This document shows positions 2,186-62,408 of a DNA stretch of 64,000 bases, piece after piece. The position numbers were made by a program, and so were the translations under genes. Within the stretch, counting starts at the first letter, position 1, and every line of letters starts with the position of its first letter. The DNA lies in assembly GCA_951828385.1 (NCBI GenBank), contig OX639973.1, positions 3,339,200 through 3,403,199 of the forward strand, read 5' to 3'. The DNA is from an uncultured Poribacteria bacterium. GTDB taxonomy: Bacteria > Poribacteria > WGA-4E > WGA-3G. Below the pieces are notes generated by a model. It did no database searches. It was not told the origin of the DNA and saw nothing but the letters and a program-made list of their open reading frames with translations.

Positions 2186-2614
2186 TCAAACCTTGCTTTC
2201 GATATCGACACCGGGCCACTGATCATCTTGCTCAGTAATGTCAACGACGATCCCGTCCGGGTCTTCGACTTTGAAGGCGACTGAAGGCAGTTCGTCCGAA
2301 TTGGGATCGTAAGGTTTACTACCGTCTAAGCCTTCCCAAGTAATTTCAAAGCCGAGGTCTTCACACCGTTGTGCGGCTTCTCCCAAATTTGGGACACGAA
2401 CACCGATGTGGAGGTAGTCCAACATTCCACCGACATGTTCGGGACGCTCCGGACCGCGGTGCTGAAATACACGGAAATTGTGATAACCATCGGTAAGGTC
2501 GTAGCAGCCGTTCATCGTTGAGAAGACCTGCAATCCGAGCGCATCGCGCCAAAAACGGATGCTTTTCTCCAGATCGGTTGTACGGACACCGATGTGTACA
2601 AGTGTTGTTGCCAT
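2186..2614 (-). CDS. VOC / glyoxalase-fold protein
   Basis: A 142-residue single-module vicinal-oxygen-chelate protein. The opening LVHIGVRTTDLEKSIRFW and later YLHIGVRVPNL are the two beta-alpha-beta starts of the fold. The C-terminal VEDPDGIVVDITE carries the usual metal-binding acidic residue. Such proteins act as lactoylglutathione lyase-like, dioxygenase-like or resistance proteins, and the family alone does not tell which. It is the first of three minus-strand metabolic genes (VOC, PhyH, SCP2), separated from PhyH by a tandem palindromic repeat. Confidence 0.8.
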   Translation of the reverse strand: MATTLVHIGVRTTDLEKSIRFWRDALGLQVFSTMNGCYDLTDGYHNFRVFQHRGPERPEHVGGMLDYLHIGVRVPNLGEAAQRCEDLGFEITWEGLDGSKPYDPNSDELPSVAFKVEDPDGIVVDITEQDDQWPGVDIESKV

Positions 2615-25679: not shown

Positions 25680-28253
25680 ATGAAAAGGACGCAATTTCAA
25701 AAAGTTTTGGCAAGGCTTGTCCAAATTATTTCATACCGTCCGCGCTTTCTTGCTGAAACTCTAATAAAAAGATTAATTTTACTACTCTTTGTGGTTTCAA
25801 CCTTTTTGCGACTGAATGCCTTCGCCGAAAATTATGCGCAACGGGATTTACCCGTAGGTGCTAAGGCACGCCTCGGTAAGGGATCTGTAGGCGGTTTAAA
25901 GTTCTCCGCTGATGGCAATCGCCTGATGGTCGAGAACGCTGTCGGGATTTGGGTCTACGATGCCCACAGGGGTGTAGCACTGGATTTAATCACAAGAAAT
26001 TTATCAGACAGTCTCGCTTTGAGTCCGGATGGCAGTACTGTTGCCGGTTGGGGACCAGACGACCAGGTATGCCTGTGGCACGTAGCCGATAGCCAGAACA
26101 AATTAACACTTCAAGGTGATACCTCGAAAGTCCGCAGAATGACTTTCAGCCCGGATAGCCGCACGATTGCTGGTGGGACTTCGGACGATAAGGTAATACT
26201 ATGGGATGTTGCCTCTGGCGCGCGCAAAGCAACGCTCATTGGACACACACACGTAATCACCTCAGTAGCCTTTAGTCCGGATGGTAGCACGCTCGCAAGC
26301 GGGAGTTGGGATGAGACGGTGCGTCTATGGGATGTTGCGACTGGTAGGCACAAAACGACCCTCACGGAACATACCGAAGGCATCTCTAACATCGCTTTCA
26401 GTCCAGATGGTAATACATTCGCGAGTTCAAGTACCAATGAAGATAAGTTACACTTATGGGATGCAATCACTGGAACCCACAAAGCAGCTCTTGATACGGA
26501 TGCCAATTGTACCGCTTTCAGTCCTGACAGTCGTACGCTTGCCACTGGAAGTTGGAGGGGCGAATTACACTTATGGGATGTCGCCAGTGGAACCCACAAA
26601 GCCGAGTTCCTGGGGCATCCGTCAGATATTGTTTCCATTGCATTCAGTCCAGATGGGAAAACACTTGCAAGTGGCGGCGGCGACAAACTGTATCTATGGG
26701 ACACTGCCAGTGGTACGCGCAAATTATCGATTACCGGTCATACAGATGGTGTTTATTCAATTGCCTTCAGTCCAGATAGCAAAACGCTTGCAAGCGGGAG
26801 TTATGAACAAATCCGTCTATGGGATATCGCCACAAGTACACACGAAGCAACGCTGTTTGTAGGAGACTGGGCAACTAATGCCGGTTTGGATTTCAGTTCA
26901 GATGGAAACACACTTGTCAGTGAACACGGTTCGCTAATTCATCTGTGGGACGTTAACAGCCGTACACACAGCGCAACCATCAGAAGATATGGGGAAACAA
27001 CAAGCGGTTATGTCAGATACAGATCAATTGCTTTCAGTCGTGATGGCAGATTTTTTGCTCGTAGCGCGAGTAACAGTGTGCAGCTATGGTATGCGGGACG
27101 GACACATAAAAAGACACTTACTGGTCATACAGATAATGTCACTTCAGTCGCTTTCAGTTACGACAGTCGAACCCTGGCAAGTAGTAGTGTGGACAACACA
27201 GTGCGGCTGTGGGATGTTGAGACTGATGCCCACAAAGCAACTTTCACCGGACATACTGAGAGTGTTGTGAGTGTTGCGTTTAGTCCGGATGGGAGTCTCC
27301 TTGCGAGTGGTAGCGATGACAACACAATAATTCTATGGAGTGTGGACACCGGGGAACCGAGAACTACCATCGTGGCACATACGAACGGTATCAACGATGT
27401 TGTGTTCAGGCCAGATGGCAAAACCCTTGCAAGTTGTGGATATCGGGAGGATACTACCGTGAAACTGTGGGATGTTGAGACGGGTGCGCTTAAAACGACC
27501 TTATTTGGACACACGTACGGTATTACTGAAATTGCGTTTAGTCCGGATGGTCAGACCCTTGCGAGCGGTAGTTGGGACGGCACAGTGCTTCTGTGGGATA
27601 TGAATCCAGACGCAGTTGCTGAGACTGAAACCCCACAACTTGCAGAGGATGCAAATGCTGATGGTGGGGTAGACCTCCAGGATTTGGTTTTTGTTGCCTC
27701 ACAATTTGGACAGTCTGGTGGAGAAAACGCTGCGGATATTAACGGGGACGGTGTTGTTGACATAGCGGATATCTTGTTGGTCGCTGGTGCCCTTGAGATC
27801 GGCAATGGTGCGCCATCTGCGTATTCTCGATCGATAGGATTGCTCACGGTTGGGGAAGTGGAACAGTGGTTAATGAAAGCACTGGAAGTTAATGACAAGG
27901 GACCCGTCTTCCAAAGAGGTATTGCCGTGCTTCAAAGACTCTTGGCTGTGCTGACTCCGAAAGAGACGGGACTTCTACCCAACTACCCGAACCCATTCAA
28001 TCCAGAGACGTGGCTCCCCTATCAGTTAGCAGAGACAGCAGATGTGACACTCCGCGTCTATGCTGCGAGTGGTGAATTGGTACGGACACTGGCATTGGGG
28101 TATCAATCCGCGGGTATTTATCAAAGTCGTAGTCAAGCGGCGTATTGGGATGGTAAAAATGAACTCGGTGAACCTGTCGCAAGTGGTATGTATTTCTATA
28201 CGTTGTCTGCTGGAAGGTTCACAGCAACACGGCGGATGGTCATACGGAAGTAA
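25680..28253 (+). CDS. Secreted WD40-repeat protein with dockerin and FlgD-like C terminus
   Basis: An 857-residue protein. A basic N terminus of about 28 residues precedes a hydrophobic signal segment (30-46, cleavage after AFA near 49). About a dozen WD40 repeats follow (SPDGSTLASGSWDETVRLWD and variants), making one or two beta-propellers. Residues about 650-705 form a dockerin-like calcium-binding pair (DANADGGVDLQD, DINGDGVVDIAD), and the last 93 residues hold PNYPNPFNPETWLPYQL with a FlgD-Ig-like sandwich, as in sorted surface proteins. GGAGGGTGA precedes the ATG. Probably surface-exposed and scaffold-like. Confidence 0.88.
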   Translation: MKRTQFQKVLARLVQIISYRPRFLAETLIKRLILLLFVVSTFLRLNAFAENYAQRDLPVGAKARLGKGSVGGLKFSADGNRLMVENAVGIWVYDAHRGVALDLITRNLSDSLALSPDGSTVAGWGPDDQVCLWHVADSQNKLTLQGDTSKVRRMTFSPDSRTIAGGTSDDKVILWDVASGARKATLIGHTHVITSVAFSPDGSTLASGSWDETVRLWDVATGRHKTTLTEHTEGISNIAFSPDGNTFASSSTNEDKLHLWDAITGTHKAALDTDANCTAFSPDSRTLATGSWRGELHLWDVASGTHKAEFLGHPSDIVSIAFSPDGKTLASGGGDKLYLWDTASGTRKLSITGHTDGVYSIAFSPDSKTLASGSYEQIRLWDIATSTHEATLFVGDWATNAGLDFSSDGNTLVSEHGSLIHLWDVNSRTHSATIRRYGETTSGYVRYRSIAFSRDGRFFARSASNSVQLWYAGRTHKKTLTGHTDNVTSVAFSYDSRTLASSSVDNTVRLWDVETDAHKATFTGHTESVVSVAFSPDGSLLASGSDDNTIILWSVDTGEPRTTIVAHTNGINDVVFRPDGKTLASCGYREDTTVKLWDVETGALKTTLFGHTYGITEIAFSPDGQTLASGSWDGTVLLWDMNPDAVAETETPQLAEDANADGGVDLQDLVFVASQFGQSGGENAADINGDGVVDIADILLVAGALEIGNGAPSAYSRSIGLLTVGEVEQWLMKALEVNDKGPVFQRGIAVLQRLLAVLTPKETGLLPNYPNPFNPETWLPYQLAETADVTLRVYAASGELVRTLALGYQSAGIYQSRSQAAYWDGKNELGEPVASGMYFYTLSAGRFTATRRMVIRK

Positions 28254-28417: not shown

Positions 28418-30943
28418 ATGAAAACGATGCGACTTTCGATTTTAATGCTATTTCTTATTTCAATCTTCTTTCCATTAAGCGCGTTTGCTCAGGATTACAC
28501 ACAATGGGGATTACCTGACGGTGCCACAGTGAGACTGGGAAAAGGCGGGTTACGGGGCAATATCGTCTTTTCACCGGACAGTACCTTGCTCGCTGTTTCA
28601 ACTGCTATTGGGATTTGGATTTACGATGGATATACCGGTAAAGAACTGAAACTGCTTACAACACGGACAGGCGGAATTTCGAGTGTCGCGTTCAGTCCGG
28701 ATGGAAAAACCCTCGCAAGCAGTAGTTCTGCCGAGTTTTATCTGTGGGATGTTGAAAGCGGTGAACACAAAGCCACTCTGACAGGACACACAGACGACAT
28801 TACGAGTATAGCGTTCAGCCCCGATGGGAAAACGCTCGCAACTGGTGGAGAATGGAAAGACGGAACAGTGCGTCTCTGGGATATTGAGACTGGGACGCTT
28901 AGATCCACTCTCATTGGTCATACAGATGGTATCTTAAGTGTCGCGTTCAGTCCCAATGGAAAAACGATCGCCAGTAGTGGACATTGGAAAGACAAGACAG
29001 TACGGCTCTGGGATGTTGCTACTGGTACACTCACATCGACACTCAGCGGACATTTAGACGGTGTTACGAGCATCGCGTTTAGCCCTGATGGTCACACACT
29101 CGCGAGTTGTAGTCATTGGTGGGGCGGCACGGTGTGGCTCTGGGATGTCAACAGCGGTGAACTGAAAACAACCCTGACCGGACATGTAGATAGTGTCCAT
29201 AGTGTAGCATTCAGTCGAGATGGTAGTGTGCTTGCAAGCGGAAGCGAAGATGGCACAGTGTGTTTATGGGACACTGCCACTGCTGCCTACAAGACAACGC
29301 TCTCGACACATACCCGAAGTGTATCAAGTGTCGCGTTTAGTCCTGATGGTAGAACCTTCGCCAGTAGTAGTCGAGACGGCACAGTGCGACTGTGGGATGC
29401 CACGAATTTTGAGCAAAGAGCGACAATCATGGGTCATACGACGGGCTTTTCAAGTATCGCGTTTAGTCCTGATGGACGAACGCTTGTGAGTGGTAGTTGG
29501 GACCGAGCCGTACGCCTATGGGATACGACGACTGGTAATAACAAAACTACACTTACTGGACATATAGGTCCCATTGAATCCGTTGATTTCAGTCCGGATG
29601 GTCGAACGGTTGCCAGTGGCGGTGGCATAACTGTCATCAACGGTTGGTTCGTAGATGACTACACGGTAAGGTTATGGGATGCAGCCACAGGCACGCATAA
29701 AATGACCCTCATCGGACATAAGGACGGTATTTATGATGTCGCGTTTAGTCCCGATGGCCGCATGCTTGCCAGTTGCGGGGGCAGGTATGACAAGAATGTG
29801 TGTTTGTGGGATACCGACACAGGTAGTCACTTGGCGACGCTGGCAGGTCATAAAGATGGTGTCCTCAGTGTCGCGTTCAGCCCGGATGGAAATACACTCG
29901 CAAGTGGAAGTTCGGCGGGAATACATCTGTGGGATATTCCGAGTAGACAGCAAAAAACCGTGCTCACTGAGTATAGAGGGACAATTTGGACGCTCGCGTT
30001 CAGCCCGGATGGAAATACACTCGCAAGTGGTGGTATGGACCGAGATGTCCATTTATGGGATGTTGAGGCTGGCGAGCACAAGATCGCTCTCATAGGACAT
30101 ACAGACAGAATTACCAGTGTCGCGTTCAACCCGGATGGAAATACACTCGCAAGTAGTGGAGGTTGGAAAGACAGAACAGTGCGTCTATGGGATCCTATTA
30201 GCGGGGAACACAAATCGACTCTCGCGGTGTATGCAAGCACGGTTCAGAGTGTCGTTTTCAGTCCAGATGGAAATACACTCGCTACTGCTGGTGCTGGTGG
30301 AATAATACTCTTGTGGAGGCTCGGAACTACAGAGGAACCGCCGTTGTTGGAAGCAGATGTGAACGGTGATGGTGTTGAAGATATTCAGGACTTAGTGCTT
30401 GTCGCCGCAAACTTCGGACAGACGGGGCCAAACGCTGCAGATGTCAATGATGACGGTGTTGTTGACGCTGCCGATCTTATCAAAGTCGCCGCTGCGTTGG
30501 ATAATGCGGCAGCTGCGCCATCTGCTGCGATGCTTAACGTAAAAAATGTACAACAGTGGCTTATGCAAGCGCGGCAATTAGATTTGACGGGTGCAACGTT
30601 ACAGCGAGGTATTCACTTCTTCGAACAACTGCTCGGGACGTTAGCACCAACAAAGACGGTATTATTGCCGAACTACCCGAACCCATTCAATCCAGAGACA
30701 TGGATCCCCTATCAGTTGGCGAAGGCTGCGCATGTAACATTGCGTATCTATTCTGCCGATGGACAATTGATTCGAACCTTGGCATTAGGACATCAGTCTG
30801 CGGGTATTTATCAACGCCGGAATCGTGCGGCGTATTGGGATGGAAACAATGAATTCGGTGAACTTGTTGCCAGTGGTGTCTATTTCTATACGTTGACAGC
30901 AGGGGATTTCTCAGCAACGCGAAAGATGCTAATACAGAAGTAA
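28418..30943 (+). CDS. Secreted WD40-repeat protein with dockerin and FlgD-like C terminus (paralogue)
   Basis: An 841-residue paralogue of the preceding gene. Signal peptide 1-24 (cleavage AFA-QD), then about thirteen WD40 repeats, a dockerin-like pair (DVNGDGVEDIQD and DVNDDGVVDAAD), and a 93-residue C-terminal module from 749 (LLPNYPNPFNPETWIPYQL) ending ATRKMLIQK. AGGAGA precedes the ATG. The two genes are tandem paralogues with well-conserved termini and diverged propellers, fitting repeat-unit turnover. Confidence 0.88.
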   Translation: MKTMRLSILMLFLISIFFPLSAFAQDYTQWGLPDGATVRLGKGGLRGNIVFSPDSTLLAVSTAIGIWIYDGYTGKELKLLTTRTGGISSVAFSPDGKTLASSSSAEFYLWDVESGEHKATLTGHTDDITSIAFSPDGKTLATGGEWKDGTVRLWDIETGTLRSTLIGHTDGILSVAFSPNGKTIASSGHWKDKTVRLWDVATGTLTSTLSGHLDGVTSIAFSPDGHTLASCSHWWGGTVWLWDVNSGELKTTLTGHVDSVHSVAFSRDGSVLASGSEDGTVCLWDTATAAYKTTLSTHTRSVSSVAFSPDGRTFASSSRDGTVRLWDATNFEQRATIMGHTTGFSSIAFSPDGRTLVSGSWDRAVRLWDTTTGNNKTTLTGHIGPIESVDFSPDGRTVASGGGITVINGWFVDDYTVRLWDAATGTHKMTLIGHKDGIYDVAFSPDGRMLASCGGRYDKNVCLWDTDTGSHLATLAGHKDGVLSVAFSPDGNTLASGSSAGIHLWDIPSRQQKTVLTEYRGTIWTLAFSPDGNTLASGGMDRDVHLWDVEAGEHKIALIGHTDRITSVAFNPDGNTLASSGGWKDRTVRLWDPISGEHKSTLAVYASTVQSVVFSPDGNTLATAGAGGIILLWRLGTTEEPPLLEADVNGDGVEDIQDLVLVAANFGQTGPNAADVNDDGVVDAADLIKVAAALDNAAAAPSAAMLNVKNVQQWLMQARQLDLTGATLQRGIHFFEQLLGTLAPTKTVLLPNYPNPFNPETWIPYQLAKAAHVTLRIYSADGQLIRTLALGHQSAGIYQRRNRAAYWDGNNEFGELVASGVYFYTLTAGDFSATRKMLIQK

Positions 30944-32212: not shown

Positions 32213-34768
32213 CTAATGGATAATTTTTGCGTTGAGGATAGGACTATCCTGTACAAACGGTTTGCCGTTGATTGTAGCTGAACCTCGGAATTTGAACTGA
32301 TAGGTTTTATCTTCCAAGGAACTGATAACCTTGAGCGGTACTTTGACCTCGGTTTCATTCACCGGAATCGTAACAGTTTCCGTGGTGAACCCCTCTGGCA
32401 CATCGAGTGGTGTCAGTGTGACTTCATCGGTAAAACCACCTTGCCGGACGATTGTTAGCGTGAGTATTGCCTCCTTTGTCGCTGGCGGATCGGTTTCCTC
32501 CGCAAGAGAAGACTCGGTATCTGCATTTGGATTTGCTGCAATCGCCACGGTGCCTCCTTGTGAGCCTGTGGTTGCGTCTGCAGTTGCAGCGACCGTTGCG
32601 GGGAAGACGATGCTAAAGCGCAAAGGCTCCACTGTTACAATGAAAGGTGCTTCAAGAATCGTCAGCGGAATAGCAGGTGTTGACTGACTTACCGTCTCCG
32701 TATCAACCTTCGCCGTGCCAAAAACGGAGATATAGTTGATGCCCGGCACTGGCACGACAGAAAACTGTTCCCTTCGCTCAAAACTTCCTGCTTTTACTGA
32801 GAGGACTGCCTCATTTTCACCTTCGGCAATATTAACAGGTGTTGCTGTCACTCGGGGGGGTAAGCCTACAACCGTGAGTGTGATCGGATCTGTGAAATCG
32901 TCGCGCCGATTCGCCGTTACGTGCAGGTTGACCGTTTTGTTATGTGTGACACTTGTACTAATCTCGGCGAGCGTCAGTGTAAATTCCGGTGCCTCCATCA
33001 CTGTCAGCAGCATCGGAGAAGGTGTAGCAGTACGTTCTACTTGACGATTGCCAACCGCACAGACTCCCGCGACAGAAAACGGCATCAGACCGAGTGGAGC
33101 GTTCCACGGTGCCGTGACCGTGAGCAGTGCCTTGTTTTGCCCCGTCTCAATGACAGCAGGACTCACTTCAAAAGTTTTCGGTAGAGTAGGGCAGTGTAAG
33201 CGGATAGGCCCGCTGAGTCTGTCAACGCGGTTAACGTTAACCTGCATTGTGAAGGTCCCGCCCCGGCTGACGCGCGGGCTATCTAAACCGGATGGACGGT
33301 TCTGGCTGTCAAGTACGACTGCACTGAGTGTGAAGCCTGGTTCCAAGGGACGAATGTTTAAACGGTATGAATAAGCATCACCGCCTTGGTTATTCAGATC
33401 TCGAATCGCGACAGAATACTTTCCTGCTTCCGTAAAATTCCAGTCAATGCGTGCGTCGGAGCCGCTGGCATCGTCGTTCACCATCAAGACCTGTTCTTTC
33501 TTGGGACTCTCGGAAACCTCCATATCTGTTGCGGCTTCCATCTGTTTTTCTGCACCGTAGAGAGTGAGAAGCGCATCAAGCTGCGATGACAATCTCAGTG
33601 CCTCCACCTCAAAAACAAGGAGTTGAGGTGCCTTTATCTCAAATGCGAACCGATCAACATCACCGGATTTGTCAATTTTTCCGTTGATTGTTATCGGTGC
33701 GGTCACGGCATTTGCTTTTTCAGCCGTATTGTTGGGTTCACTTTCTCCCATTTCTGCCAAATTTCCGATGGAGAAAGGGTGCGGATTACTTGTCAATCCA
33801 GAAGCCGTCTTTACCCTCAGCGTCTGTTCGCCGGTCGGCGTTTCAGCATTTATTGAAACCTGTATAGCATTCACTGTTTCAAGATTTGCGCCGGTGACAG
33901 CGATCGTATTATCCGTTCCGCGTTGTCCGCCAAGTGGAAAAATTGTCTCAAGATAGGGCAATTCACCGATACTCAGGCGATAGCGAAATCCGTTTCCACC
34001 TTTATAGCGGATATCTCGGATATGGAGTGTGTATTTACCCGTTTCAAGGGCGGTATAATTGAGGAGAGAATCTAATCCGTTCCCCTGTCCACTGTTCGCG
34101 ACCTCGACCCCATTAGCGTCTTGGAGGATGAGATACGAATCCAGAGGCGATCCTATCCGTTGTGCCGTCACTTCACAGATAAGCTTCGCATCTTTTTTCA
34201 CGTTAAAACTGAAACTGTCTTGATCATCAATTGATGTGATCTCACCATTTACGGTAACAGGCAGCTCCAGCCAATTTGACATTTCAGTGTCTTCGGCTGC
34301 TTCATCTTCGTTTATTTCTGGTAGGTTACCGACAACGAAATTTTGTGCGTTGGAAACACCATAAGGCGTAACGATACGCATCTGCTGGATACCTAATGGT
34401 GCATTAGGATCAATCGTTAAAGCGGCGACCAGCTGCATGTCGGTAGGCACACGTCCAGAAATTCCATCGCCATTGAAGAGGACAGCGGCTTGCTGCGTTT
34501 CCTGCCTAATTTCTGCGGTGATGCCGGTTCCACTGAACCATACCGCCGTTGCCGTGTCAAGATTTTGACCTTTGAGCGTAATTGCTACATTTTGTCCCTG
34601 TTGTGCACCTGGCGGGGAGACAGTCGATAGTGATGGCACAACCTGCGCGTGTGCGAAATTAATTATTAGAAAAAAGATCACTATGACGAGAAGAGGCTGT
34701 TTCGTTAAGAAATCAGGGAGGAGCGCATTAACCTGTCTTCCGAGTTTCCGAAATAGCGTATTCGGCAT
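32213..34768 (-). CDS. Secreted PPC-domain / IPT-like surface protein
   Basis: An 851-residue exported protein: N-terminal signal or anchor at about 25-42, an IPT/TIG-like domain (LSTVSPPGAQQGQNVAITLKG), two bacterial pre-peptidase C-terminal-like domains (DQDSFSFNVKKDAKLICEV and DVDRFAFEIKAPQLLVFEV) and several beta-sandwich repeats with VTVTA-like strands. Similar planctomycete proteins are large and of unknown role, probably extracellular adhesion or structure. GAGG lies upstream of the ATG. No catalytic motif seen. Confidence 0.78.
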   Translation of the reverse strand: MPNTLFRKLGRQVNALLPDFLTKQPLLVIVIFFLIINFAHAQVVPSLSTVSPPGAQQGQNVAITLKGQNLDTATAVWFSGTGITAEIRQETQQAAVLFNGDGISGRVPTDMQLVAALTIDPNAPLGIQQMRIVTPYGVSNAQNFVVGNLPEINEDEAAEDTEMSNWLELPVTVNGEITSIDDQDSFSFNVKKDAKLICEVTAQRIGSPLDSYLILQDANGVEVANSGQGNGLDSLLNYTALETGKYTLHIRDIRYKGGNGFRYRLSIGELPYLETIFPLGGQRGTDNTIAVTGANLETVNAIQVSINAETPTGEQTLRVKTASGLTSNPHPFSIGNLAEMGESEPNNTAEKANAVTAPITINGKIDKSGDVDRFAFEIKAPQLLVFEVEALRLSSQLDALLTLYGAEKQMEAATDMEVSESPKKEQVLMVNDDASGSDARIDWNFTEAGKYSVAIRDLNNQGGDAYSYRLNIRPLEPGFTLSAVVLDSQNRPSGLDSPRVSRGGTFTMQVNVNRVDRLSGPIRLHCPTLPKTFEVSPAVIETGQNKALLTVTAPWNAPLGLMPFSVAGVCAVGNRQVERTATPSPMLLTVMEAPEFTLTLAEISTSVTHNKTVNLHVTANRRDDFTDPITLTVVGLPPRVTATPVNIAEGENEAVLSVKAGSFERREQFSVVPVPGINYISVFGTAKVDTETVSQSTPAIPLTILEAPFIVTVEPLRFSIVFPATVAATADATTGSQGGTVAIAANPNADTESSLAEETDPPATKEAILTLTIVRQGGFTDEVTLTPLDVPEGFTTETVTIPVNETEVKVPLKVISSLEDKTYQFKFRGSATINGKPFVQDSPILNAKIIH

Positions 34769-34889: not shown

Positions 34890-36518
34890 TTAAAGGACAG
34901 AAATTTTGACGCTGAAAGCGTTGCGGCTTCCTTTCACACTGTACACACTCCCGGTAGCACACAAGCGAAACAATTTACCCCGGTCAAAAGCGTGTGTAAT
35001 TTTTCCCGTTTTTTCCGGCAAAATATGCCATTTTATAGCGAGGGCACCGAGTGCTTCCACATACGCCTCGCCGTGTTGGCACTCCCAGACAGAGTTAGGT
35101 ACGCCTTCCGGTGCTTTTTCTGTCGGCAGGTTTTTGTTGCCATCAAATAGGTAGAAAGTTCCTTCCGCTTTTCCTCTCCCGACACCGATATCCAGCGTAA
35201 GCGTGCCGCCATCCTCAAACGCCGTGGTATCAATCTCCAAAACGGTGTAGTCTTGATGCGGGACCATAGAGGTTTGAAAAGTGTCCATTACCTCCTCTGA
35301 GGAGCACACAGGGGTCAGGACAATTCTACCCAAACCGGGGCGTTTTCCTTCTAAGGCTTCCGATAAGAATAGATGGTACCCCTCCGTTGCAGAGAGTCCC
35401 CTATCACTGCTATCTCCGTGGAGCCGGTTGAAATCTTGACTACCCATCAGTTCAAGCTCAGGCGAGATAACCAGACAATCTACTGGCGAGAATATATTCC
35501 ACCCGTTTATGATAGCTTGTGCCAACGGGTGTGTTGCGTCAACCGCCTTGAAGTTCCGATGGGCCCTTTTCGCAATGTAGGCGCGCTGTGTTGGCGTGCG
35601 CCCTAAAGCAACATTAGACACCCATGTATTGATAAAATGTTCGTTCAAGAATTTGATGTTTTGTTCGTCGGAGAGAGCACCTGCCCTCAGGCTTTTGCCG
35701 CTCCCTCAACAGGTTTCATCCACCAAAGGACCGTCTATGGAAATGACGTGAATCGGTTTCTGCTGTGCTTGTGCTAATTCTAATGCCGTCTCCATTGAGA
35801 CCCAATCGATCTGCTCCGATTTGTAAAACTGGCAGTTTAGCACATGTTCGATTTCTTCCTGCGCAATAGCGGTAGAACTGCTCATTGCACTTTTCAAGTG
35901 GGTCGTGATGTCTTGCAGAACATCTTCGGCACCAGCACGGAGTTCCATTTGTGCGCAGAAACCGGTATCCATAATCCAGTTGGAGTCATCCCAACTCTTT
36001 TCGTCCTGCCAGCCAACCTCAAAATTCACGGGACCTTCTGGAACGCGCATCTGAAAGAACGAAACTGTCTCTTCTCGACGGTTGACAATGAGATGCCCCG
36101 TAAACTGTGAAGGCGTGAACCAGCCATCACCTAACTTGAATTCTGCGTGAATACGAAACACAATGTCTGCGAATTCATCAGTGTAAGCACGTAAACAAGC
36201 CCACAACCCGGGATCCCCGTAACCACGCATATCCAAATGTGGGTTCGGGTGAAGTTGCCGCAGTAGTTCAAGGATACCCGCTTCTTCAATCTGCCAAGGA
36301 TTTCCAACAGATACCGCTTCGTCTGGCAGAAACGCGCGGAAAACGGATGCCGAATACTCCTTTTCTGGGACGGCGATTCGAAGATTCGTCAACTCGTCCC
36401 ACTCAAACTCCACGTGGTAGTTAGCTAAGGTGTATTCAATCGGGGCGATGAAACCTTTGATGGAAATTTTGGTATCACCATCAATATTAAGCACAATTCT
36501 GTTGGAAGTTAGGTCCAT
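34890..36518 (-). CDS. Probable selenoprotein with thioredoxin-like CU motif
   Basis: The frame is open from ATG 36518 to the stop at 34890 except for one TGA at 35706-35708. Read as selenocysteine the product has 542 residues, with C270-U271-G-S-G. Around it, ALELAQAQQKPIHVIS leads into the CU motif and SLRAGALSDEQNIKFLNEHF follows, the pattern of a thioredoxin-like fold with its redox motif at a helix start. Both sides of the TGA read as one continuous domain. A SECIS-like hairpin starts directly after the TGA. The N-terminal 230 and C-terminal 230 residues are not recognised. Without recoding it would be two fragments, the second lacking a normal start. Confidence 0.75.
35673..35708 (-). 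promoter_or_regulatory. UGA codon and SECIS-like hairpin
   Basis: After the TGA: outer stem GGGAGC/GCTCTC (6 bp), a 7-base bulge on the 5' side, inner stem GCCT/AGGT, and 6-base loop GAGGGC whose first base is G, 18 bases from the TGA. This fits bacterial SECIS geometry (G at the start of the apical loop, short distance to UGA). Confidence 0.6.
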
Positions 36519-36680: not shown

Positions 36681-38126
36681 TTAGAATATCCCGGCGATTG
36701 GTTCGCCTTTGACCAATTCGCGGGGTTGCTCTAAATGGTTGTAGACGATCGTATGCGGATCAATGCCGAGGGTGTGGTAGACCGTGGCAAGGATGTCGCG
36801 TGGATGCACCGGATTCTCAAGTGGCGTTGAACCTGTAGCATCGGACTTCCCGTAAACCTGTCCGCCCTTGACACCTGCGCCTGCGATTAACCCTGTGTAG
36901 CAATAGGGCCAGTGGTCGCGTCCATCAGGTGCGTTGCTATTACCGGAGGTGCTAATACCCATCCGTGGCGAGCGTCCGAATTCACCGATTGCCAAGACGA
37001 GTGTATCCTCTAACATCCCGCGCTGATCCAAGTCTTCGAGCAGCGAGGAGACGGCACTGTCTAACTTCGGGCAGTGAAGGTTTTTCAATGGACCGAAGTT
37101 GGTTGCGTGCGTATCCCAGGCAGTCGTATTCGGATTGCCATTTGCGACAGAGGGCCAGTTCACCTGTACGAAACGGGTGCCTGCTTCCACCAAACGACGA
37201 GCGAGGAGTGCACTCTGTCCAAAGGTATGTCTACCGTACTTATCTCGCATCTCATCTGGCTCTTGGGACAGATCGAAAGCGTTACGTGCCCGCTGCGACA
37301 AGATGAGGTTGTATGCCTTCTCATAATACTCGTTCAAGGCATAGGAGTCCGCCACCTTATCAATTTCGGGCATACCGGCGTTAATTGTCTCAAGGAGGTT
37401 TTTCCGGCGTTTCAAACGCACGGGTGACACTTCTGGACGCAAGCTTAAGTCGTCGAGGTTAATATCTTGATTCGGATCCTGGAAGAGGAAGTACGGATCG
37501 TAGGCTCTCCCCAAGAAACCGGCGTTTCCGCCTTTACCGATGATATTACTCTCTTGCATCGGACGCGGAAGTTGTACTGCCGCGAGCATCGGTTCATCGG
37601 GTGGACGATAATTTGAGATATGCGATGCGGCATTCGGATGATCAGCAGGCGAAGGCGGATCAAGTTGTCCTGAAGGAGCGACCTTATCCGGCGTTTCGCC
37701 AGTAACCATTTGATACATCGCAGCAGTGTGGTTGAAAAGCCCTGCCGGTGTGTAGCTTACCGAACGGATGAGGCAGGCTTTGTCCATCTGCTGTGCCAAA
37801 CGTGGCATCGTCTCAGATAACTGAATCCCCGGCACGTTGGTCGGGATCGGTTTGAATTCACCCCGAATGTTTGAAGGTGCATCGGGTTTCGGATCCCAGA
37901 TATCGAGGTGGCTAGGGCCGCCTTGTAAAAAGAGAAGGATGACCGAGTTGGCTTTCCCCCATCCGTTTAGCGGTTTAGCAGGGTCAACTGCCGTATTCGC
38001 GTTCGCTTGGAGTGACAATACCTGTGGCAGACTAATGCCGAGCATCGCCGCACCACCGACACGTAGAAATTCACGACGTGAGAACCCGTCACACAAGCGT
38101 CCGGGTAATTGTGGTAACGATAACAT
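36681..38126 (-). CDS. DUF1501 (sulfatase-fold) TAT-exported protein
   Basis: A 481-residue protein with a twin-arginine leader (SRREFLRVGGAAMLGISLPQ) and the DUF1501 core: SVILLFLQGGPSHLDIWDPKPDAP, then GEFGRSPRM and GRDHWPYCYTGLIAGAGVKGGQVYG. DUF1501 proteins have an alkaline-phosphatase/sulfatase-like fold and accompany DUF1549/DUF1553 proteins in planctomycetes; their reaction is not settled. GGAGGAAAC precedes the ATG. It follows the DUF1549/1553 gene on the same strand, the classic pairing. Confidence 0.88.
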   Translation of the reverse strand: MLSLPQLPGRLCDGFSRREFLRVGGAAMLGISLPQVLSLQANANTAVDPAKPLNGWGKANSVILLFLQGGPSHLDIWDPKPDAPSNIRGEFKPIPTNVPGIQLSETMPRLAQQMDKACLIRSVSYTPAGLFNHTAAMYQMVTGETPDKVAPSGQLDPPSPADHPNAASHISNYRPPDEPMLAAVQLPRPMQESNIIGKGGNAGFLGRAYDPYFLFQDPNQDINLDDLSLRPEVSPVRLKRRKNLLETINAGMPEIDKVADSYALNEYYEKAYNLILSQRARNAFDLSQEPDEMRDKYGRHTFGQSALLARRLVEAGTRFVQVNWPSVANGNPNTTAWDTHATNFGPLKNLHCPKLDSAVSSLLEDLDQRGMLEDTLVLAIGEFGRSPRMGISTSGNSNAPDGRDHWPYCYTGLIAGAGVKGGQVYGKSDATGSTPLENPVHPRDILATVYHTLGIDPHTIVYNHLEQPRELVKGEPIAGIF

Positions 38127-38247: not shown

Positions 38248-40752
38248 TTAGCGATTGAATAAGAAGGCGGGACTGTTAATCAATGCCCACAACAGGTCTT
38301 GCGCACCTTCTTCCTTAGATTCAGCGTTCGCGATATGTTCAACCGCTACTGCATATTCGTTCTTCTCTGGTAACCGAGAAAATGTTGCGAGATATAATTC
38401 TTCAACGAGTGCTCGGTCATCTTGATTCGTTTTGATGAGTTGTGCGATACGTCCTTTTGGATCAATGAGTGCTTCTGCCACCGTTGGTCCATTAATGAGG
38501 TTCATTGCGTGTGCAAGGCTGACCTCGGTCGTGCGTTCACATTCACACGAGGTTTCGCGTTCGGGTCTGCCAAACAGTTTCAAAAATCCGTCATCTTTGA
38601 CTTTACTGTCTGGCAATTGCACAGCGCGGAAGTTCTTGGGTACCTCTTGGAACCGGGGTCGGCTTCCTGTGGCAACGCCGATAGCGTCTAACAACTGCTC
38701 TGCTGTCAAACGTCTTGCGACCGCGTGTGAGAAGTTAATTGTATCTGACTTGTTCCACTTATTCGTCTTGATACTCTGTTGATAGGTTCGGGAACGCGTG
38801 ACTGTCTTCATGATATGCTTCATGTCGAATCCACTGTCCACGAAATCTATCGTCAATGCGTCGAGCAGTTCAGGGTTGCTCGGTGGGTTACTCGTGCGGA
38901 TATCATCCACAGGCTCAATAATCCCGCGTCCCATGAAGTAACTCCAGAGACGATTCACACCGGCGCGTGCGAACATCGGATTATCCTTGGAGGTGAGCCA
39001 CGTTGCGAGCATGTGCTGCTTATCGTCGGTTTCTGCCACAACTTCCCCGAATGGAACTGACGGTTCAACGACCGCTAAGGTGCGTGGATGTTTCACAGGG
39101 GTTGCCGTGTAACTCGCGTAGACGATTTCATCTCCGGGTAGCTGCCCCTGTTTCACATTGACATCCGCGAAGAACGCGCCAAGTTCATAGTACTGGTTTT
39201 GCGTCCATTTCTCAAACGGATGGTCGTGGCATTTGTTGCAGGAGAACCGAACCCCTAAGAACAGCTGCGTTGTGTTTTCGACCGCAGCGGTATATTCACG
39301 GGATACACGGAAATAACTTGCCGCGGGATTCGCGTAGGTGCTTCCGGTCGCTGTAATCAGGTCTCGTACAAACTGGTCATACGGACGATTCTGAGCGATT
39401 GCCTGATGGATCCACTGTTGGAAGAGCCAGACACCGCGTTCACCGAGGAATTTGCGGTTAGACTGCAGCAGGTCTGCCCACTTATGTGTCCAGTGGTCAA
39501 TAAACTCTGGTGTTTCGACGAGTGTGTCAATGAGTTGTTCGCGTTTGGTTTTAGAGGCGGTGGTATCAGCAAGGAAACTCCGCGCCTGTTCGGGTGTCGG
39601 CGGGAGACCTGTCAGATCGAAATAGATGCGCCGTACAAACTCTTCATCTGTGCAAAGCTCAGAAGGCAGGATTTTCATCCGCTTCAGTTTATTGTGCACG
39701 TGCGTATCAATATAGTTATACTCAGGCGTTTGAACCCATTTATAACCGCTTCTGTCGCCCATGACGATGATGCCATTCGTGCTGTAGGCACCTTCATATC
39801 GGGTGAGGATAGCAGTTTCGCCACGGCGCTCTGCGGTTACCACACCGTCGTCCGTAATTTTTGCGACTTCATTGAGGCTGCTCGTGAATTTCGCCTCACG
39901 GGTAACATCTCGCGTTGTGCCATCGGGATAGTGCGCGATCACCAAAAGCTGCTGCTTCATACCGGGCACAGCGAGTTCAGCAGAATCGGGTAAGACTTCT
40001 AACCTTTCGACGCGCTGTGTTGTTTTGACATCAGAACTCGCCCCTTCTGCTATCCATTGGCGGATGAGCTCGTAATCCCGTGAACCGGGGACGATCACTT
40101 GTCCACCTTTGTGTGGCACTTCGGATGTCGGCTTGAGCAACATCAGACTCTGTTCGGGAAATGCCCGATTAAACCGTCTGCCGGATATGTCCTCAATCAA
40201 GAGCTCATAATCAAAATCGGGATCGTAGCCACGGAGTGAGAGTTTGAATCCATTTTTACCTTTTGCTGCACCGTGACATGTACCGTTATTACATCCAGCA
40301 TGGCTTAGGAGCGGCATGACATCCCGTACGAAACTGACAGGTGGTGCTTCCATGCCCTTGACCTCTACGGGCAATTCGGCACTCACGCCGCTGACAGTAA
40401 CGACAATTTTCGTTGTGCCAACTGCCATCGGGAAGATATAGCCATCTTCATGCACTTTTACCCCAGCCGTAGCAGGTGTCAGCGTCGCCCACGGCGTTAC
40501 ATCTACATAAGTGCCATCTTTTGTCTTACCTGACACGAGTACGCGTCTGCCATCGCGTGCGTGCTCGAATGTCAGCGACTCCGGATGAACCCTCAACTCC
40601 GTTAAAGCGATGCTTGCAAGCCACTGTTCCGCCGTCGGCATTTCGGCACTTGCAGGCCGCGCCATCTCACTATGCGCTGCTAACTGGAACGCGAAGCAGA
40701 TGGAAAATGCAACAAGGAATGTTGTTACAAAGTTAAACCTGGGTTTCATCAA
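38248..40752 (-). CDS. DUF1549/DUF1553 cytochrome-like secreted protein
   Basis: An 834-residue exported protein: signal peptide 1-28, a BIG2-like Ig domain (TWGATL-like TPATAGVKVHEDGYIFPMAV), a planctomycete-type haem-binding segment GCNNGTCHGAAKGKNGFKLS (C-x4-CH), then DUF1549 (DEEFVRRIYFDLTGLPPTPE) and DUF1553 (NRLWSYFMGRGIIEPVDDIR...). A second CNKCHDHPFEKW gives a CxxCH motif. Such proteins may pass electrons during polysaccharide breakdown in planctomycetes, but this is not proven. Start uncertain between the two ATGs at 40752 and 40749. Confidence 0.85.
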   Translation of the reverse strand: MMKPRFNFVTTFLVAFSICFAFQLAAHSEMARPASAEMPTAEQWLASIALTELRVHPESLTFEHARDGRRVLVSGKTKDGTYVDVTPWATLTPATAGVKVHEDGYIFPMAVGTTKIVVTVSGVSAELPVEVKGMEAPPVSFVRDVMPLLSHAGCNNGTCHGAAKGKNGFKLSLRGYDPDFDYELLIEDISGRRFNRAFPEQSLMLLKPTSEVPHKGGQVIVPGSRDYELIRQWIAEGASSDVKTTQRVERLEVLPDSAELAVPGMKQQLLVIAHYPDGTTRDVTREAKFTSSLNEVAKITDDGVVTAERRGETAILTRYEGAYSTNGIIVMGDRSGYKWVQTPEYNYIDTHVHNKLKRMKILPSELCTDEEFVRRIYFDLTGLPPTPEQARSFLADTTASKTKREQLIDTLVETPEFIDHWTHKWADLLQSNRKFLGERGVWLFQQWIHQAIAQNRPYDQFVRDLITATGSTYANPAASYFRVSREYTAAVENTTQLFLGVRFSCNKCHDHPFEKWTQNQYYELGAFFADVNVKQGQLPGDEIVYASYTATPVKHPRTLAVVEPSVPFGEVVAETDDKQHMLATWLTSKDNPMFARAGVNRLWSYFMGRGIIEPVDDIRTSNPPSNPELLDALTIDFVDSGFDMKHIMKTVTRSRTYQQSIKTNKWNKSDTINFSHAVARRLTAEQLLDAIGVATGSRPRFQEVPKNFRAVQLPDSKVKDDGFLKLFGRPERETSCECERTTEVSLAHAMNLINGPTVAEALIDPKGRIAQLIKTNQDDRALVEELYLATFSRLPEKNEYAVAVEHIANAESKEEGAQDLLWALINSPAFLFNR

Positions 40753-40996: not shown

Positions 40997-41953
40997 TTAC
41001 GAAAGATCCCAGAGCAGGACAGAGTTGTCTTCACTTGCGCTCGCGAGCACACTGCCATCGGGAGAATAGGCAACATTTCTGACACTCCCTGTATGCCCCG
41101 TAAGTGTGCTTTTCGGCTTACCTCTCTTGGCATCCCACTGACGCACCGTGCCGTCACTACTGGCACTAGCGAGCGTTGTGCCATCCGGAGAAAAGGCAAC
41201 ACTCCAGACATAACCTCTATGTCCGGTGAGTGTGTTCTCGGTTTCACCTGTTATCACATCCCACAGACGTACTGTGCGGTCAGTACTTGCACTGGCAAGG
41301 GTTTCGCCATTCGGAGCATAGACAGCAGCATTGACAATATGCTTATGACCCGCGAGTGCCGCTTTGTGCCGTCCAGTGGCAGCATCCCACAATAGAACGG
41401 TGTCATCTCCGCTGCCCGCTGCGATCGTGCTTCCATCAGGAGAATATGTGACAGACCTAATAGAGAACTGCTCCACTGTGAGAGTATTTCTAACTTCCCC
41501 TGTGCTTACATCCCACAAATGTACCGTGCCATCAGGACTTCCACTCGCCACCGTGTTCCCATCAGGAGAAAAGGCAACGCTTCTAACAGCGTCAGTATGT
41601 CCGGTGAGCGTTGCTGTCGGAGCCCCGCTGGTTGCATCCCACAGCACAACGGTGTTGTCAATACTTCCACTTGCGATTGCCCCGCCATCCGGTGAAAAGG
41701 CGACACACCTGACGTATTCTTTGTGCTCCACAAGTAGGTTGAGTCCTGTCGCACTCTCTACATCGTAGACCCAAACGCCGATGTCGCAGGCGACTGCAAG
41801 TTGTGTCCCGTCCGGTGAGAAGGCTATATCTCCAGTTAGGTTTCCTTGGTCAAGTCGTGCTTTGACTCCTTCAGGTAGATTCAATTGTATTTCTTCTCCA
41901 ACTTTTAGATTTTCCAATGTTAAAGATATTTTTTGGCATAACTTGTAAGCCAA
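40997..41953 (-). CDS. WD40-repeat protein without export signal
   Basis: A protein of up to 318 residues with seven WD40 repeats (SPDGGAIASGSIDNTVVLWD and similar), enough for one propeller. There is no signal peptide, dockerin or FlgD-like end, unlike the two large WD40 proteins at 25680-30943, although the line LPEGVKARLDQGNLTGDIAFSPDG matches their mature N termini. The only possible starts are TTG codons (41953 or 41917), without a ribosome-binding site, so the 5' end may have been lost. The repeats themselves are intact. Confidence 0.7.
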   Translation of the reverse strand: MAYKLCQKISLTLENLKVGEEIQLNLPEGVKARLDQGNLTGDIAFSPDGTQLAVACDIGVWVYDVESATGLNLLVEHKEYVRCVAFSPDGGAIASGSIDNTVVLWDATSGAPTATLTGHTDAVRSVAFSPDGNTVASGSPDGTVHLWDVSTGEVRNTLTVEQFSIRSVTYSPDGSTIAAGSGDDTVLLWDAATGRHKAALAGHKHIVNAAVYAPNGETLASASTDRTVRLWDVITGETENTLTGHRGYVWSVAFSPDGTTLASASSDGTVRQWDAKRGKPKSTLTGHTGSVRNVAYSPDGSVLASASEDNSVLLWDLS

Positions 41954-62379: not shown

Positions 62380-62408
62380 TTGACATCTCTCGGAAAACCC
62401 TCTAAAAT
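62380..62408 (+). promoter_or_regulatory. Sigma-70 promoter of the sulfatase gene
   Basis: TTGACA, 17 bp, TAAAAT, ending 38 bases before the ATG at 62447. Confidence 0.75.

Follow-up and report, generated by a model that had tools for sequence, protein, structure and literature searches.

A Poribacteria gene family with a conserved in-frame UGA: a probable family of selenoenzymes with a vicinal Cys-Sec pair

One frame across an in-frame TGA

On the minus strand of the window, by which we mean the whole analysed stretch of 64,000 nucleotides, two open segments lie in one frame and are separated by a single TGA, which raises the question of whether this codon terminates a gene or is read through and, in the latter case, as which amino acid. 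Translation from position 36518 to 34890 with TGA rendered as U yields 542 residues with an ATG start, a TAA stop and no further in-frame TGA. The gene (34890 to 36518, minus strand) accordingly comprises 542 codons plus the TAA stop, and its peptide is VISIDGPLVDETC-U-GSGKSLRAGALSD. The TGA occupies positions 35706 to 35708 of the minus strand, where the peptide runs LVDETC-U-GSGKSLR with U271 encoded at 35708-35706 directly after the invariant Cys270; the upstream open reading frame according to translation table 11 (35706-36518) has 270 amino acids. An earlier note, made from sequence alone, had described one frame broken by a single TGA at 35706-35708, which is confirmed by translation; its coordinates, codon counts and motif held as well, while the strand, left unstated there, is the minus strand. 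Our best explanation, to which we assign a probability of about 0.8, is that the gene encodes a member of an expanded selenoenzyme family, specific to Poribacteria, which carries out thiol or peroxide redox chemistry by means of a vicinal Cys-Sec pair, with substrate and reaction being inferred.

Both sides of the TGA are coding and under purifying selection: comparison with six orthologues gives dN/dS values of 0.14-0.22 upstream of the TGA and of 0.22-0.31 downstream. One rival explanation holds that the TGA is a sequencing error, the stop of a pseudogene or the boundary of two genes, and finds some support in the fact that each half is open and that a TTG-initiated open reading frame exists downstream. 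Against it stand the purifying selection on both sides, the recurrence of this TGA in hundreds of family copies that stem from independently assembled genomes, single-contig ones included, and the absence, across the 65 codons following the TGA, of any column in which more than 20% of the members have Met. Checks for homologues ending at the TGA and for independent genes, which the earlier note had named as possible refutations, were run and found neither. We regard this rival as all but excluded.

The motif DE-x-C-U-[GA]-[ST]-G, TGA included, is kept in 73 of 73 motif-bearing members extracted; the context in the broader family is DE-x-C-U-[GA]-x-G-K, and more distant subfamilies show CUANGK or CUADGK. 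All rows listed from the search of the phylum, more than 140 in number, contain an in-frame TGA, as do 12 of the 12 thioredoxin-domain copies of the source genome. Not all of the several hundred family copies were read individually, but nearly all intact copies, we conclude, keep the TGA. The criterion of a conserved in-frame UGA with protein conservation on both sides is met. Among the copies read, the only intact member devoid of the TGA (DEAC-G-ASGK, genome G030, contig C115, L107:1114-2853, plus strand) has Sec replaced by Gly while Cys270 is retained; its N-terminal stretch resembles a signal peptide. We would like to note that G030, which is 96% complete, has no full-length SelA match, yet its other family copies retain the TGA, and that a copy on its contig C70 (L117, L123) contains several stops and a frame shift and is apparently a pseudogene. 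No Cys version of the family was found in the phylum. A search for CC or UC homologues, which was restricted to the phylum, returned none, and at E 0.01 neither a Sec nor a Cys form of the thioredoxin domain is present in those 20 genomes of the phylum which lack the family.

A second rival explanation assumes that the UGA is decoded as Trp, Cys or Gly via a code change or a suppressor tRNA rather than as Sec. The member with Gly at the site speaks for it. Among 56 members with the end available, however, 28 terminate with TAA, 23 with TGA and five with TAG and, since TGA is the terminator of 23 of these 56, UGA still terminates, even in genes of the same family. A further argument against this rival is the complete Sec pathway in the genome together with a SECIS-type hairpin after the UGA, and it, too, can be virtually dismissed. 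The source genome, a single contig of 6.66 Mb, contains selA (603 bits), selB (355 bits) adjoining the tRNA-Sec gene (76 bits, anticodon UCA according to ARAGORN) and selD (363 bits), whereby the criterion for a selenoprotein-producing bacterium, the presence of SelA, SelB, SelD and tRNA-Sec, is met. The selD gene (L001, G000:C1:1330118-1331041) has its own in-frame TGA within KCAG-U-ASK, which makes SelD, too, a selenoprotein in this genome. The co-occurrence of selA with the family is uninformative, as SelA exceeds its cut-off in 57 of 65 family-bearing and in 15 of 20 family-less genomes. Elsewhere in the window, two further TGA codons, at 2186-2188 (minus strand) and at 62381-62383 (plus strand), are each flanked on either side by long open segments of a single frame; a Sec reading of these was not tested.

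A hairpin downstream of the TGA

Starting at +18 after the TGA, a putative bacterial SECIS hairpin is present at positions 35673 to 35688 of the minus strand (stem GAGGGC/GCUCUC, loop AGGU), which was assessed by RNAalifold, pair counts, synonymous constraint and energy. The copy in the window shows a distance of 23 nt from the UGA to the loop, a 6-bp stem and an energy of -8.6 kcal/mol. Taken alone, the window sequence can also adopt a longer fold (-17.9 kcal/mol) which is not common to the family. Applied without guidance to the 57 members with common spacing, RNAalifold reveals one hairpin, in which columns 21-26 pair with columns 31-36 counted from the UGA, with the consensus GAGRRC-AGKU-GYYCUC. 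Standard pairs occupy 98.2% of the stem cells compared to 50-78% (maximally 78.2%) with the partner slid. One stem pair varies on both sides (7 cells), a result matched in one of 500 shuffles; as a caveat regarding covariation, most stem pairs do not vary, three of them being invariant or nearly so. The pair count left out 16 members with a shifted stem. Over all 73 members, 52 form this stem perfectly; in these 16 the stem, likewise of 6 bp, is displaced by two bases and encloses a loop of 6 nt, and five members show one mismatch or more, which amounts to a full 6-bp stem in 68 of 73.

Within the hairpin, third codon positions are nearly frozen: Ala is always encoded by GCA, the next codon invariably ends in T, and Leu is encoded by CTC in 58 of 60 cases. 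Measured in 10-codon windows, the strongest synonymous constraint of the gene is found at codons 275-284 (0.77 versus a median of 0.54). The published bacterial SECIS model (PMC13188914) demands a stem of 4-16 bp, a loop of 3-9 nt, a G in the first two loop positions, a spacing of 16-37 nt and a minimum free energy of at most -7.5, and the hairpin of the window meets these limits. Because this model is permissive, the evidence from pairing and codon usage outweighs the fit to it. A pattern scan of the source genome returned eight sites, all inside family copies, with none in the reversed control, and Rfam provides no meaningful match at the TGA site. The earlier note had postulated a stem at +18, which held, and a loop starting with G, which did not: the conserved loop is AGGU or AGUU, with G as its second base. 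Its selenoprotein claim is supported by the Sec machinery, the conservation, the SECIS pairing, the synonymous constraint and the downstream dN/dS of 0.2-0.3. We hold the insertion of selenocysteine at UGA271 to be almost certain on comparative evidence, although neither translation of the gene nor selenium in its product has been shown directly.

Distribution, locus and predicted structure

Homologues are present in 42 of 60 relatives and, across the phylum Poribacteria, in 65 of its 85 genomes, with the TGA at the corresponding site in copies from these 65. Profile searches of the phylum give 563 matches, fragments included, and 448 matches to the N-terminal domain with a maximum of 17 in one genome. 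All relatives found in the genome collection are Candidatus or uncultured Poribacteria; the scan beyond the phylum was a single pass with one query sequence, in which only Poribacteria matched. Neither the plasmid searches nor the viral search revealed relatives, but since the viral scan used Cys codons, viral Sec forms would have escaped it. Other copies form tandem arrays; in one of them (G032, C38) eight copies lie within 59.7-72.7 kb. In a tree of 75 members the gene of the window falls into a clade of ten (support 100/99), and the same paralogue types from different species cluster together. Because the types group across species, several of them must be old, each having retained the TGA. 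A family specific to Poribacteria and expanded by duplication is the best reading of this distribution.

The order of the locus, DUF1549/1553 gene, DUF1501 gene, selenoprotein gene, PPC/TIG protein gene and TGT gene, is kept in seven other species. In the window the syntenic neighbours, all on the minus strand, are the DUF1549/DUF1553 (PSCyt2/PSD1) protein at 38248 to 40752, the DUF1501 protein directly upstream at 36681 to 38126 and, downstream at 32213 to 34768, a protein of 851 amino acids with PPC and TIG domains; they give no clear functional hint. Three WD40 beta-propeller proteins are encoded around this region (25680-28253, 28418-30943 and 40997-41953).

An AlphaFold2 model built from 52 members, with Sec treated as Cys, has a mean pLDDT of 83, which drops below 50 at residues 269-271. 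Residues 232-392 (35343 to 35825, minus strand), containing the active site C270-U271-G-S-G274, match DsbH (2ju5) with a VIA Z of 12.5 (rmsd 2.9, 121 aligned residues), followed by ERp18 (1sen, Z 11.4), AGR3 (11.1) and DsbD-gamma (9.4). The criterion for a thioredoxin fold, a model matching solved thioredoxin-fold proteins, is met, and this fold, with Sec placed in the catalytic position, is likely, albeit predicted by the model. When the profile of the family is aligned with DsbD-gamma of E. coli (PDB 1uc7/2fwe), U271 falls on the first catalytic Cys, Cys270 on the preceding Trp and Gly274 on the resolving Cys, with a stretch free of gaps downstream. As the probability of this alignment (0.1%) is negligible alone, the register rests on the fold and the ungapped local match. 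In both alignments, where U is shown as C, no variation occurs at Cys270, Sec271 or Gly274. The hallmark of a classical thioredoxin, a second redox residue at +3, is missing; this position is an invariant Gly (U-x-x-G). Cys108 and Cys188 are invariant among close members and, because they are lost in some distant subfamilies, a redox relay via these residues is not general.

The N-terminal alpha/beta domain (about residues 1-215; 35874 to 36518, minus strand), modelled alone from 56 members, reaches a pLDDT of 88.7 and a pTM of 0.87 and has no match among solved structures (best Foldseek E 0.17, best VIA Z 4.8). It may tentatively be considered a candidate new fold, a model-based suggestion for which a missing match is no proof. 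Residues 397-542 (34893 to 35330, minus strand) form a C-terminal beta-sandwich resembling PliG, GOLD and collagen-binding domains; since this fold is common to many unrelated proteins, no function can be derived from it. The beta-sandwich is missing in some relatives belonging to another family, which end near residue 370. It is doubled in some members (L106, L116), and separate copies adjoin arrays (G000:C1:5407741-5408196). With respect to the earlier note, a Cys-Sec pair at the start of a thioredoxin-like helix is supported by the model and by the matches to DsbH, ERp18/AGR and DsbD-gamma, with the exact register remaining weak. Its claim of large unrecognised terminal parts held for the N-terminal part and failed for the C-terminal one, a common beta-sandwich, and its assignment as a thiol or peroxide oxidoreductase is still inference.

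Proposed activity and relation to known families

In the mechanism which we propose, codon 271 (UGA) would be translated by the ribosome as Sec via SelB, tRNA-Sec and the SECIS hairpin 18-33 nt downstream. Sec would occupy the position of the attacking Cys of a CxxC motif, with Gly in place of the resolving Cys and the invariant Cys directly before Sec. Its selenolate is inferred to attack a peroxide, a disulfide or a similar electrophile, and a thiol or peroxide redox reaction of this kind appears likely. The intermediate may then be resolved by Cys270 or by an external thiol, for which a selenenylsulfide between the vicinal Cys and Sec is one possible route; whether the resolving step actually involves the vicinal pair is an inference which could go either way. 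The flanking domains may diversify partner or substrate specificity, as is suggested by the many retained paralogues. A third rival explanation accepts the selenoprotein but not the redox enzyme, the Cys-Sec pair serving instead to bind or transform soft metals or metalloids (mercury, arsenic) within the sponge host. It is backed by CU motifs in the catalogued mercury-tied selenoproteins SaoL and HgcA (PMC13188914), but is opposed by the placement of Sec at the catalytic position of a thioredoxin fold and by the absence of metal-resistance genes directly adjoining the gene, and we deem it unlikely.

The redox selenoenzyme remains our preferred reading. A bolder version of it, a Sec-only, lineage-specific enzyme family with an N-terminal domain of new fold and a new active-site arrangement (vicinal Cys-Sec without a resolving Cys at +3), with about 17 copies per genome and arrays of up to eight genes, is one against which we would place the odds, if only by a small margin. 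Selenoprotein genes are readily mistaken for broken genes in annotation, and standard annotations of Poribacteria probably show the genes of this family as split or truncated. By itself, this family accounts for as many as about 17 candidate selenoprotein genes in one genome of these mostly sponge-associated bacteria, pointing to an unexplained selenium demand. Given that no Cys form is found in the phylum, it becomes testable within one family why Cys has not taken the place of Sec. According to a 2026 review, aerobic bacteria rarely retain selenoprotein genes, and the largest bacterial selenoproteomes comprise 57-63 genes (PMC13188914); an enrichment of SelA and SelB in bins of sponge symbionts from various phyla was described in 2017 (PMC5649159).

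Neither the protein nor profiles yielded a credible match in searches of Pfam, NCBIfam and PDB sequences, and none of the 119 catalogued prokaryotic selenoprotein families (PMC13188914) corresponds by motif and domains. The open-access literature searched contains no paper dealing with both Poribacteria and selenoproteins; as subscription papers were not covered, an earlier description cannot be excluded. The catalogued CU-motif selenoproteins SaoL, SaoC, HgcA, MbdU and KCU-star (PMC13188914) have the adjacent Cys-Sec in common with the present family but are not of the thioredoxin type, as judged by family names only, without structure comparison. DsbH/Thioredox_DsbH (DUF255), AGR/ERp18 and DsbD-gamma share the thioredoxin fold (Z 8.9-12.5). 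Some members of the new family reach PF03190 (DUF255) weakly (E 0.016-0.03), but membership is not given, the domain of the window scoring 12.3 bits versus a curated cut-off of 27. In contrast to these proteins, the new family has C-U-G-S-G instead of CxxC and, in addition, the N-terminal domain and the beta-sandwich. With the catalogued thioredoxin-like selenoproteins (Trx UxxC, Trx7/PDZ CxxU, VPGUxxT and UGC-TlpA; PMC13188914) it shares Sec within a thioredoxin-like fold and a bacterial SECIS just downstream.
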